A stretch of 43,745 nt of DNA from Clostridiaceae bacterium (GTDB lineage Bacteria; Bacillota; Clostridia; Saccharofermentanales; UBA5734): NCBI GenBank assembly GCA_012523135.1, contig JAAYJD010000020.1, forward strand, positions 1 to 43,745. The letters run 5' to 3'. Positions 17,692-29,878 of this stretch are shown here, piece after piece; positions within the stretch are counted from its first letter, which is position 1; each line of letters opens with the position of its first letter. The notes beneath the pieces were generated by a model. The model searched no databases. It was not told the DNA's origin and was given only the letters and a program-made list of their open reading frames with translations. Position numbers and translations under genes: made by a program.

Positions 17692-18432
17692 ATGCCTCTA
17701 AATGAAGGGCGCTGCCCGAACTGCGGCTCAATATTACAGCTCAATACGGCTGCCGAAAAAGGCCATTGCCTTTTCTGCGACGCCGTATTCGAAAACGCGC
17801 AGGCGTTCGAGATTGCCGATAACCCCGGCGACCACACGTTCCCCAATTTGCCCCAGCCCAAGTACGAAGGCCCCAACCTCGATCCGGATTTATCGGCCCG
17901 CGGTTCAGGCGTAAGCGCCTCTTCGGCCAACAAGCCCAAGAAGAAGCCTCGTCCGGCGCCTCCGCCGGTCTACATCCCCAAGGAGCCGGTCAAGCTGCCG
18001 GATATCCGGCTGCCCCGCAAGACCATGCTCCGCATCCTGCTGATATCGCTGGTAGTCATCCTGGTAGCTGTCGCGATCGCGATTCCGCTGATCCTGAAAC
18101 GGGACGAGGTGCGCCGCGGGCTGCTGGATTCCCTCGACGATATCGCCCCGTTCACCATTCAGGTTGAGCAGGACGCCGCGATCTGGCACACAGCCAACAA
18201 TTACTTGATGGTCTCGACAGCAGATGCAGTGACCCAGGACGAGGCGATCGCTTTTTTCAAGGCATTCTGTGAGAAACGGGCGACGCTGCTGGGTGTTGAC
18301 ACCCAGCAGTTCCAGGCGGTGTACGCGCCGGTCAAGGTCAAGCTGGTCAGTCCCGACGGCGGCTTTCTGATCGCCAAACCGGAAAGCCAGGCGGATCTGG
18401 ACAGCGGAAAGGCCGTTACCGTCCTGCCATGA
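17692..18432 (+). CDS. zinc-ribbon single-pass membrane protein, function unknown
   Basis: A 246-residue protein I cannot assign to a named family. It starts with a four-cysteine zinc ribbon (CPNC at 8-11, CLFC at 26-29), then a Pro/Lys-rich linker (KPKKKPRPAPPPVYIPKEP, about 83-101), a single transmembrane helix (about 113-134, ILLISLVVILVAVAIAIPLIL), and an extracytoplasmic domain of about 110 residues. The layout of an N-terminal cytoplasmic zinc ribbon, one helix and a small outer domain is common among clostridial envelope proteins of unknown role. AGGAAGG precedes the ATG, and the stop overlaps the PAP2 gene (ATGA), indicating coupled expression with a membrane phosphatase. Confidence 0.8.
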   Translation: MPLNEGRCPNCGSILQLNTAAEKGHCLFCDAVFENAQAFEIADNPGDHTFPNLPQPKYEGPNLDPDLSARGSGVSASSANKPKKKPRPAPPPVYIPKEPVKLPDIRLPRKTMLRILLISLVVILVAVAIAIPLILKRDEVRRGLLDSLDDIAPFTIQVEQDAAIWHTANNYLMVSTADAVTQDEAIAFFKAFCEKRATLLGVDTQQFQAVYAPVKVKLVSPDGGFLIAKPESQADLDSGKAVTVLP

Positions 18433-19142
18433 TCCGGACGCTGCGCAACGGCTTGGCACGCAACACCTGGTGGAGCCGGCTGCTGATCGCCTCCACGTAC
18501 CTGGTCTCGACCTTCTTTTACATGATGACCAACCGCCTGGCCAGTAACCATGACCGGGCGGTTGTCTTTAAGTTCGCTTTGGATGATCAAATTCCCCTGG
18601 TCCCGTTTTTCGTCCTGTTTTATTTTGCCTGGTTCGCTCTGGTCGGATCCGTCTTCCTCTGGCTGGTCTTCGACCGCCGGACGGGCCGGGCGATTGACCG
18701 CCATACCGCGGCCATCGTGCTGGCCATGGTCCTGTCCGCGCTTGTCTTTATCGCCTGGCCGACCCATGTGCCCCGGCCGGAGGTGTACGGCGACACGTTT
18801 TTCCGGCGCCTGGTATTGCTGATCTACAGCATCGACGAGCCGTATAACTGTTTTCCCAGCCTGCATGTCGCCGTCGCCGCCCTGAACGGGCTGACGTTGT
18901 ACCGGCACGGCCCGCGCCGAATCCTGTTCCGGCTCGCTGCCGCGGCTGTGGTGGTCCTGATCATGCTCTCGACCGTCCTGATCAAGCAGCACTTTACGCC
19001 GGACATTCTGGGCGGCCTCGCCCTGGCCTGGCTGTGCGACCGCCTGGCCGCTCTCCTGGTGAAAAAGAAGCCGGCAAAAGGCGCGGTTCGCCAGGAAATA
19101 GACAGAACCGGCCCAAAACCGGGCAATGAGAGAGCGACATGA
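18429..19142 (+). CDS. PAP2-superfamily membrane phosphatase
   Basis: A polytopic membrane protein of 237 residues with about six hydrophobic helices. The PAP2 catalytic motifs are visible: NCFPSLHVAV (C2, with its PSxH) and STVLIKQHFTPDILGG (C3, S-x7-H-x3-D). The first motif is weak. Family members remove phosphate from phosphatidate, undecaprenyl pyrophosphate or related lipids, or act as phospholipid-dependent transferases; the FPSLHV form resembles the inositol-phosphorylceramide-synthase-like branch. It overlaps the zinc-ribbon membrane gene by 4 nt, and the pair probably acts at the envelope. The lipid substrate is unknown. Confidence 0.85.
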   Translation: MIRTLRNGLARNTWWSRLLIASTYLVSTFFYMMTNRLASNHDRAVVFKFALDDQIPLVPFFVLFYFAWFALVGSVFLWLVFDRRTGRAIDRHTAAIVLAMVLSALVFIAWPTHVPRPEVYGDTFFRRLVLLIYSIDEPYNCFPSLHVAVAALNGLTLYRHGPRRILFRLAAAAVVVLIMLSTVLIKQHFTPDILGGLALAWLCDRLAALLVKKKPAKGAVRQEIDRTGPKPGNERAT

Positions 19143-19187: not shown

Positions 19188-19242
19188 TTTCTATGGTGTT
19201 CACATTTATTCATATTTCGGTAGAAAATTGGACAAAGTCTTT

Positions 19243-19251
19243 TGTTATAGT
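19243..19251 (+). promoter_or_regulatory. extended -10 promoter for candidate small RNA
   Basis: TGTTATAGT is an extended -10 element (TGn plus TATAGT). No convincing -35 box lies at 16-18 nt; a TTGGAC at 19228 is only 12 nt away. It would start a transcript near 19258, just before the first hairpin. Confidence 0.4.
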
Positions 19252-19257
19252 TGAAGC

Positions 19258-19353
19258 ATAGCAAGACAGGAATTGCTAACCTCCTTCTTTCATACTTTTC
19301 TCCTCCAATTTTGGAACAGTTCCGGGAGTGGTGCCCCGGAATTGTTTTTTTTT
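19258..19353 (+). ncRNA. candidate small RNA with anti-Shine-Dalgarno motifs
   Basis: An intergenic unit of about 96 nt with typical regulatory small-RNA architecture. A 5' hairpin (19259-19278: TAGCAA, 8-nt loop, TTGCTA) is followed by an unpaired pyrimidine-rich stretch with ACCTCCTT (19279-19286) and TCTCCTCC (19299-19306), then a Rho-independent terminator with nine U residues. ACCUCCUU is identical to the anti-Shine-Dalgarno core of 16S rRNA, so it could pair with strong ribosome sites such as AAGGAGGT at 29286-29293 (DUF1836 gene) and 29859-29866 (nfeD). No protein-coding frame fits this strand. It is a prediction from structure only; an attenuated leader or PAP2 3' UTR fragment is the alternative. 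Confidence 0.5.
19317..19353 (+). terminator. Rho-independent terminator
   Basis: A stem CAGTTCCGGG / CCCGGAATTG (10 bp, one G-U) with an 8-nt loop and nine consecutive T residues. The T tract is on the plus strand only, so it ends plus-strand transcription. It sits just past the end of the minus-strand DUF2161 gene. Confidence 0.85.
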
Positions 19354-19356
19354 GAA

Positions 19357-20067
19357 CTATTCGGCTGAATCTTTAAGTTCCGCCACCAGGACGGCGTACT
19401 GATCGAGGGCCTGCCTGCCGGCGTTGCTCAGGCGGTAACGACCAAAACCCAGCCGTTCGAACCATTTATAGTGATTATCGTAGAGAATGTTCCAGGTGAG
19501 CTGCGGCGCGCCCAGCGCTTTCAGCTGACTGGCACTGGCGTCATCGAGGCCGGTCATCAGGGCGGCGACGCGCAGCGCCTGCTCGCGGTAGACGGTCACC
19601 CGGGGGACCTTGGTGCTGCCGCCGCGGTTATGGTCGCCGTGACGCCCTTCAAATTCCTGTTTCAGCCTGAGCATGCGGGCCTTGTTGCGCCGGATCAGCT
19701 GGCTGCGGTCGACCATCTGCGGGACCAGCGCGACAGACACCGGTCTGGACGGCTTTTCGAGGTCGACGATCATGAGCCCGAGCTCTAACCGCCGCAGCAG
19801 GTGGAGCAGCTGCTGCCAGCGCCGGCCGGTCTGGGCTTTGCCCGCTCGCGCGACGGCGATCCAGACATCGGAAAACAGCCTCTGGCGCTGCGTCGCCTGC
19901 AGGATGACGGTCAGGTTCAGCACAAGCTTCAATTCGACCGCCATCATGGTCTGATCCCGGGTGCTGGCGACCAGGTCGCAAGCGCCCACTTCGCCGCGTA
20001 CCGTGCAGCCTGACTGCTCCAGAAAAATCCGCACGGGCTCGTAAAGGTCCTGTTCAAGATGCTTCAC
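19357..20067 (-). CDS. DUF2161 family protein, PD-(D/E)XK nuclease-like
   Basis: A 236-residue protein matching the DUF2161 pattern, a family predicted to have the PD-(D/E)XK phosphodiesterase fold. The N-terminal part has the expected core: EVGACDLVAS (Asp31) followed 14 residues later by ELK (45-47). The C-terminal part, with QLTWNILYDNHYKWFERLGFGRYRLSNAG, looks like a winged-helix-type module. GTG 20067 is chosen because GGAGG lies 6 nt upstream; the longer frame to 20166 has no ribosome site. It stands alone between the candidate small RNA and the ABC importer. A nuclease role is inferred from fold motifs; a DNA-defence role is possible but has no neighbour support. Confidence 0.8.
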   Translation of the reverse strand: MKHLEQDLYEPVRIFLEQSGCTVRGEVGACDLVASTRDQTMMAVELKLVLNLTVILQATQRQRLFSDVWIAVARAGKAQTGRRWQQLLHLLRRLELGLMIVDLEKPSRPVSVALVPQMVDRSQLIRRNKARMLRLKQEFEGRHGDHNRGGSTKVPRVTVYREQALRVAALMTGLDDASASQLKALGAPQLTWNILYDNHYKWFERLGFGRYRLSNAGRQALDQYAVLVAELKDSAE

Positions 20068-20123
20068 ACCATACCTCCGGGAGAAGGATTGCAGTGGCCT
20101 GTTACGACCTATCTTAACATGGC

Positions 20124-20145
20124 CCTTGCTGACGTACCAGCAAGG
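20124..20145. repeat. inverted repeat in divergent spacer
   Basis: CCTTGCTG-ACGTAC-CAGCAAGG is a perfect 8-bp inverted repeat with a 6-nt centre, between the DUF2161 start and the ABC importer operon. No U tract follows on either strand, so a regulator-binding site is more likely than a terminator. Confidence 0.5.
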
Positions 20146-20232
20146 CACAAACGCCGAAAAATACAAAAATGCGCAAATCGTTCTCTTGTATCATCTCCCC
20201 GCGATGCCTAGACTGGTGTTGATCCACGTGCC

Positions 20233-29269: not shown

Positions 29270-29299
29270 CAAGAAAACTTAACAAAAGGAGGTGAGAAC

Positions 29300-29878
29300 A
29301 TGTTACAGCAGTGCCTGCCGGGAACCAACATCCAGATGGATCTGCAGGGCGGACAAGATTACCGCCGGGCGTTCGACGCGGCTTTTGCCATGACCGGCGG
29401 GATCTTTCTCTCCCAGCTGACCGAGATCGTCGGTGTCCCGCCCGCCACCTTGCAGAACTGGGTCAAGCGCGGGTATGTCTCCAGTCCGGTCGGCAAACGC
29501 TACACGCGCCGCCAGACCTGCCGGATTATCCTGATTGCCCTGCTGCGCCACACGCTGTCGCTGGAGGAAGTTGCCGATTTGCTCAGCTGGATCAACAACG
29601 ATCTGGCGGACGAGCAGGATGACCTGATCGATGACAGCGAGCTTTACCTGTTTTTCTGCGATGTGGTGCAAGGCTGGCCGCCGGAACGTTGTCCTGATTC
29701 GGATCAGCTTGTTGCGCAGATCGAACAGGTCACCCGGGCGTTTCCGGACACAGTACCGGGAAGCCGGGCCAAGCTGAACCAGGTTTTGCTGGTCATGACG
29801 CTGGCCTACGGGGCCTGGCTGCTGCAGACAGAAGCCAGAAGGCGCCTGGCCAGTTTGAAAGGAGGTGCGCAGCCTTGA
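29300..29878 (+). CDS. DUF1836 domain-containing putative regulator
   Basis: A 192-residue protein matching DUF1836, a family common in Bacillota with a MerR-like helix-turn-helix. The HTH is seen in FLSQLTEIVGVPPATLQNWVKRGYV, followed by GKRYTRRQTCRIILIALLR and the family segment LLSWINNDLADEQDDLIDDSELYLFF. Function is unknown; DNA binding is inferred. Translation should be strong, with an extended AAAGGAGGTGA site before the ATG. It is the first gene of an operon with an NfeD protein and flotillin, and its stop overlaps the nfeD TTG start. The palindrome inside its own promoter makes autoregulation plausible. Confidence 0.85.
   Translation: MLQQCLPGTNIQMDLQGGQDYRRAFDAAFAMTGGIFLSQLTEIVGVPPATLQNWVKRGYVSSPVGKRYTRRQTCRIILIALLRHTLSLEEVADLLSWINNDLADEQDDLIDDSELYLFFCDVVQGWPPERCPDSDQLVAQIEQVTRAFPDTVPGSRAKLNQVLLVMTLAYGAWLLQTEARRRLASLKGGAQP

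Follow-up and report, generated by a model that had tools for sequence, protein, structure and literature searches.

A conserved small RNA gene predicted in an order of Clostridia carries the complement of a complete translation start

The window, by which we mean the whole 43,745-nucleotide stretch of DNA analyzed here, contains a predicted small RNA gene with promoter elements and an intrinsic terminator, flanked by a PAP2 gene and a DUF2161 gene and preceded farther upstream by a gene for a zinc-ribbon-like membrane protein (Table 1). All elements that a preliminary description had listed at this place (an extended −10, a 5′ hairpin, ACCTCCTT, TCTCCTCC, a terminator and its T9 tail) are present in the sequence, and its proposal of an independent small RNA gene with its own promoter and terminator is supported by the sequence layout and by terminator covariation. 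Its statement that the RNA belongs to no known family agrees with scans of Rfam 15, which at gathering and relaxed thresholds gave no match above cut-off (best sub-threshold match isrK, 18 bits versus 50). The single-sequence fold of the RNA region is modestly above chance (z = −2.45; 4 of 200 shuffles equally good), and the locus on its own is only suggestive. It is conservation across genomes, not the single-sequence fold, that places the RNA gene beyond chance.

Table 1. Positions of the predicted small RNA gene, its parts and its neighbors in the window.
Feature	Position	Strand	Remark
Zinc-ribbon-like membrane-protein gene	17692–18432	+	ORF; conserved upstream neighbor of the RNA gene
PAP2 gene	18429–19142	+	adjoins the RNA gene on its upstream side
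Tandem 10-bp repeats TTCACATTTA / TTCATATTTC	19199–19218	+	putative activator-binding site
Extended −10 TGTTATAGT	19243–19251	+	TANNNT kept at a fixed distance from the box
Predicted small RNA, ~95 nt	19258–19353	+	5′ end deduced from the −10 and 3′ end from the T-run
5′ hairpin UAGCAA-N8-UUGCUA	19259–19278	+	stem 19259–19264 with 19273–19278, six pairs
First CU-rich motif ACCUCCUU (DNA ACCTCCTT)	19279–19286	+	seed of the preliminary description; in part of the homologs only
Near-invariant core UUUCAUACUUUUCUCCUCCAA (DNA TTTCATACTTTTCTCCTCCAA)	19288–19308	+	mostly unpaired (predicted); conserved
Anti-AUG CAU (DNA CAT) within the core	19291–19293	+	natural spacing to the anti-SD
Anti-SD UCUCCUCC (DNA TCTCCTCC) within the core	19299–19306	+	natural spacing to the anti-AUG
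Intrinsic terminator hairpin and tail	19313–19353	+	hairpin 19313–19348
Terminator loop AGUGGUG	19327–19333	+	part of the terminator hairpin
T9 tail of the terminator	19345–19353	+	nine T
DUF2161 gene	19357–20166	−	other flank of the RNA gene

A BLAST search with positions 19200–19360 (161 bases) against 58 relatives matched more than 20 genomes (E = 4.6e-40 to 3e-5); the matches are intergenic and come from the same genus, the same family and another family. A covariance model built from an alignment of 20 homologs and run on 188 genomes of the order identified 44 copies in 44 genomes of families f1 and f3 (53–110 bits), with a 45th copy (G048) cut by contig ends. The predicted homologous transcripts are 84–108 nt long (median 94), and nearly all of them retain both CCUCC and the terminator. 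This is not the outcome that the preliminary description had set as refuting, in which orthologous regions would have lost both the hairpins and the CCUCC seed. Family f4 contains six diverged copies with the same plan (30–43 bits) at other genomic places. Viral contigs yielded no copy. On this comparative evidence, the predicted small RNA gene is real and evolutionarily conserved.

Class- and phylum-wide searches with the model also returned matches outside the order (best 37 and 43 bits), which we do not count as homologs; those read out are terminators beside opposite-strand gene starts or are missing the core. As such matches include real opposite-strand genes, outside the order we do not read a model score under about 45 bits as homology. 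The weak matches in family f2, mostly terminators beside opposite-strand gene starts, are likewise not counted. One f2 locus (L213, G026:C36:90349-90450) is a possible relative, with CU-rich ACCTCCTTTTTTCATTAATGCTCTCC before a terminator and an opposite frame of only 13 codons. In genus g2 there is a second copy (L072, 654–760; L073, 605–708; L074, 617–723; L075, 723–828), which has diverged and contains CUUCAUGAUCUCCUCC and UUUUCUCCUCC; in L072 and L073, more near-identical hairpins come in tandem after its terminator hairpin (loop AGUGGUGA).

The most conserved part of the RNA is the core TTTCATACTTTTCTCCTCCAA, which is near-invariant across homologs while its flanks drift; conservation peaks here and not at the terminator alone. 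Its reverse complement, TTGGAGGAGAAAAGTATGAAA, reads as a complete translation start, with a Shine-Dalgarno (SD) sequence, a 6–8 nt spacer and AUG. Cores that have changed keep both CAT and CCTCC (CATACTTTCTCCTCC in genus g2 and CATACTTTTCCTCC in part of g20), as do the f4 cores CATTTACCTTCCTCC and CATTACCTTCCTCC, whose RNA forms are CAU-UUACCUU-CCUCC and CAU-UACCUU-CCUCC. Within f1 and f3 the spacer between CAU and CCUCC stays at 8, 7 or 6 nt despite changes in length or sequence. These changes match what joint pairing with an SD sequence and an AUG would predict. The core is predicted to be mostly unpaired, with a mean unpaired probability of 0.74 over 34 homologs (0.85 in the RNA of the window), a value only slightly above that of core-shuffled controls (0.69).

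The 5′ part of the RNA is more variable. The hairpin is kept in close relatives with one compensatory change, and farther away there are unrelated hairpins or none; the ACCTCCTT motif occurs only in close relatives, in part of the homologs, and the remaining 5′ parts are unrelated. The preliminary description had pictured two hairpins flanking an unpaired CCUCC seed identical to the anti-SD of 16S rRNA. Of this picture the conserved terminator stands, but the 5′ hairpin is lineage-specific. CCUCC is kept, has anti-SD character and is predicted to be mostly single-stranded, but the conserved seed is the downstream TTTCATACTTTTCTCCTCCAA, not ACCTCCTT. The anti-SD is present as described, but the real likeness is to the complement of a complete start, anti-SD plus anti-AUG. 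The anti-AUG CAT had no place in the earlier account.

The promoter is organized around a TTCAYA-type box. In 34 of 46 sequences the distance from the start of this box to a (T/C)ANNNT hexamer is exactly 37 nt; no other spacing reaches more than 12. Often there are two such boxes, repeated at 10 bp, the distal repeat being present in part of the homologs only. The promoter region of the window (19199–19251) is without a good −35. Given the weak or absent −35, the extended −10 and the box at a fixed 37 nt, this promoter is probably activator-dependent. A search for further regulon members by promoter pattern gave, apart from the RNA genes, background-level matches only.

We searched for targets in the RNA's own genome, in relatives and among the gene starts of the window. 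With up to 3 mismatches, the only match to the 20-mer core complement in the RNA's own genome is the RNA gene itself. Relatives contain about one extra 20-mer site per genome; the only orthologous target to recur among them is a pair within genus g17. A 16-mer complement search in the relatives is barely above its reversed control. Paired with the 36 starts predicted for the window, the seed does not reach better duplex energies than its shuffled or reversed versions. These comparisons do not show that the seed masks many ribosome sites, as the earlier description had suggested it could: the duplexes are no better than controls, and outside the RNA gene the genome has no near-full complement. 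The two AAGGAGGT complements it had pointed to, before the DUF1836 and nfeD genes, are both present (at 29286 before ATG 29300 and at 29859 before TTG 29875) but are ordinary strong SD sites.

Gene-start matches in relatives are biased toward lipoproteins (14/31, versus 3/21 when the control pattern combined a consensus SD with the same ATGAA; p = 0.034 by Fisher's test); an initial comparison, whose background was small and biased, did not reach significance (p = 0.13). Since half of the matched lipoproteins lie in genomes without a clear RNA copy, the bias is weak evidence and may reflect lipoprotein starts in this group rather than regulation. Genes for exported lipoproteins are the leading candidate target class, weakly supported by these matches. 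In three f2 genomes without a clear RNA (L212, L211 and L208), lipoprotein starts match the core complement with 1–2 mismatches, e.g. TTGGAGGAGAAGAGTATGAA. In a genome with the RNA, the start of a GntR-type regulator gene (G024:C23:10778-10797, L214) matches with one mismatch (TTCGAGGAGAAAAGTATGAA) and is a candidate single-gene target.

That no specific target stands out in the comparisons with the own genome, the relatives and the window starts speaks for a reading in which the RNA mimics the 16S 3′ end, binding ribosome-associated factors or leaderless or SD-bearing mRNAs globally instead of acting as an mRNA-specific antisense. The CCUCC-type anti-SD, of which there are two in the family to which the window belongs, fits such a mimic as well. 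We nevertheless regard it as unlikely: ACCUCCUU, the motif most like the 16S tail, is less conserved than the other, and the conserved part carries a CAU at AUG spacing that would be superfluous for a mimic of the tail.

The strand of the gene bears on a further alternative. Across 48 homologs, the terminator stem shows two-sided changes at 13 of 13 pairs, 97% of cells are paired, and none of 500 shuffles reaches its covariation score. The T fraction after the stem is 0.72 versus an A fraction of 0.36 before it, and T-run polarity favors the plus strand in 45 of the 46 informative homologs and the minus strand in 1 (45:1). By these measures, the plus strand is the predicted RNA-coding strand. 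In the contrary reading, a small leader peptide or gene is encoded on the minus strand, with GGAGGAGAAAAGTATG as its ribosome-binding site and start and the hairpin as its 5′ leader. This reading draws on the core complement being a perfect SD, ATG and AAA, and on unrelated genomes in which the model picks up a terminator followed by an opposite-strand lipoprotein start. Real opposite-strand genes of that kind, however, have open frames with signal peptides, which this locus does not; here the frame that follows the ATG is 2 to 50 codons long, and its peptides (MKEGG*, MNKK*, MKKI* and others) show no conservation. With the T-runs and the promoter layout, at its fixed spacing, both on the plus strand, we consider a minus-strand gene very unlikely.

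Gene order around the RNA is also conserved. In all 44 f1 and f3 genomes with a strong match, the RNA gene lies downstream, on the same strand, of the zinc-ribbon gene, at a distance of 57–316 nt in 39 of the 44, ~3.9 kb in four genomes of genus g13 and 821 nt in the window, where the PAP2 gene stands between. The zinc-ribbon gene encodes a protein of 246 aa with an N-terminal zinc-ribbon-like CxxC...CxxC and one transmembrane segment; such a protein is present in 116 of 128 genomes of the order, and searches of it against Pfam and NCBIfam gave nothing above cut-off and sub-threshold matches to zinc ribbons only. In the two genomes of genus g15 that were read, the zinc-ribbon gene is present with a uridine-kinase-like gene directly 3′ of it, and the RNA was not found. 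Among the genomes compared, only this one has a PAP2 gene between the zinc-ribbon and RNA genes, so that the PAP2 gene looks like a recent insertion or rearrangement; a search of the genome collection with the neighbor protein returned only a distant PAP2.

Such a fixed position could mean that the region is simply the 3′ end and terminator of the zinc-ribbon transcript, with the RNA as a by-product. A by-product would hardly be expected to have its own box and −10 at a fixed spacing or its conservation peak in the core rather than in the terminator alone. It would also have to survive separation from the zinc-ribbon gene by the PAP2 gene in the window and by ~3.9 kb in the four g13 genomes, and in f4 the copies occupy other positions, three of the genomes having theirs behind a threonine-synthase-like gene. 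We give this reading very little probability. Least probable of all is a reading that puts the information into the AGUGGUG loop of the terminator, which might for example bind a protein or form a kissing loop, and makes the CU-rich core secondary. The loop is well conserved in most genera and the paralogous g2 loci repeat the terminator hairpin several times in tandem, but g11, g13 and part of g20 have altered the loop or lost it while keeping the core.

Several Bacillota RNAs offer points of comparison. Those of the RsaE/RoxS and FsrA type pair with Shine-Dalgarno regions through unpaired C-rich seeds and repress translation; their seeds are UCCC or C-rich, without an anti-AUG at SD spacing. 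The RNA described here shares the unpaired C-rich seed with them (as predicted) but adds the anti-AUG, and it has no Rfam match. LhrC of Listeria has CU-rich pairing sites. It is a Bacillota RNA with multiple gene targets under envelope-stress two-component control (PMC4132741). LhrC is multicopy and belongs to another lineage, and the Rfam scans gave no sequence relation between it and the RNA of the window.

The closest counterparts in design are the CiaR-dependent csRNAs of Streptococcus, which carry anti-SD and anti-AUG stretches in unpaired regions and are transcribed from direct-repeat promoters (PMC3091779). Like the present RNA, csRNAs are small, end in a terminator, often have a 5′ stem-loop and leave a complement of SD and start codon unpaired, which here is predicted, and their direct-repeat promoters have a −10 and lack a normal −35 (PMC3091779). 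A promoter and terminator of its own, as in start-site-blocking RNAs, are present here at the level of sequence. In csRNAs, however, the box is TTTAAG-N5-TTTAAG and ends 10 nt before the −10 (PMC3091779), whereas here the repeats are 10-bp and TTCAYA-type, and 37 nt separate the start of the proximal box from the −10. The csRNAs are also multicopy and diverse (40 types; PMC3091779), whereas the present RNA is mostly single-copy, its core near-invariant and its synteny fixed. The homolog alignment does not contain the nonamer [A/C]UCCUAAA[A/C] of the csRNAs. With both the CiaR box and the nonamer missing, we do not assign this RNA to the csRNAs. It is a new sequence family of an already known functional design, csRNA-like in build and unrelated in sequence, synteny and promoter box.

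We consider it likely that the gene encodes a stand-alone, trans-acting antisense RNA of ~95 nt that blocks translation starts. The RNA would be transcribed from its own regulated, probably activator-dependent promoter and would end at the intrinsic terminator, leaving the ~21-nt core, the reverse complement of an idealized translation start UUGGAGGAGAAAAGUAUGAAA, mostly single-stranded. Up to this point the proposal is built on conservation, strand, terminator, promoter layout, synteny and complementarity. From the design of the RNA and the analogy with streptococcal csRNAs, we infer that the core would pair with a group of mRNAs across their SD, spacer and start codon and that this pairing would block ribosome entry. 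The strictness of the core, spacer included, exceeds what generic SD pairing needs and counts against this explanation. So do the lack of a second site within 3 mismatches in the own genome, duplex energies no better than those of control seeds, and an unpaired probability of the core only slightly above that of shuffled cores.

A more specific version, which we think rather doubtful, is that the RNA complements the lipoprotein start consensus of the lineage, TTGGAGGAGAAAAGTATGAAA, so that switching on the activator would shut down the whole class of exported lipoproteins. Envelope-stress RNAs of enterobacteria repress outer-membrane proteins, and the RNA would then be their Gram-positive counterpart.

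As a start-blocking antisense RNA or otherwise, the locus defines by its sequence a family of small RNAs that Rfam lacks, in an order represented here mainly by draft genomes. The csRNA design, a complement of the whole start site, recurs in it without any relation in sequence and with another promoter box. Three families share a nearly fixed core, yet no target matches it fully. This raises the question of whether one RNA regulates many starts through partial matches or whether something else keeps the core fixed. The conserved gene order and the 37-nt rule of the promoter provide handles for finding the activator and the targets.
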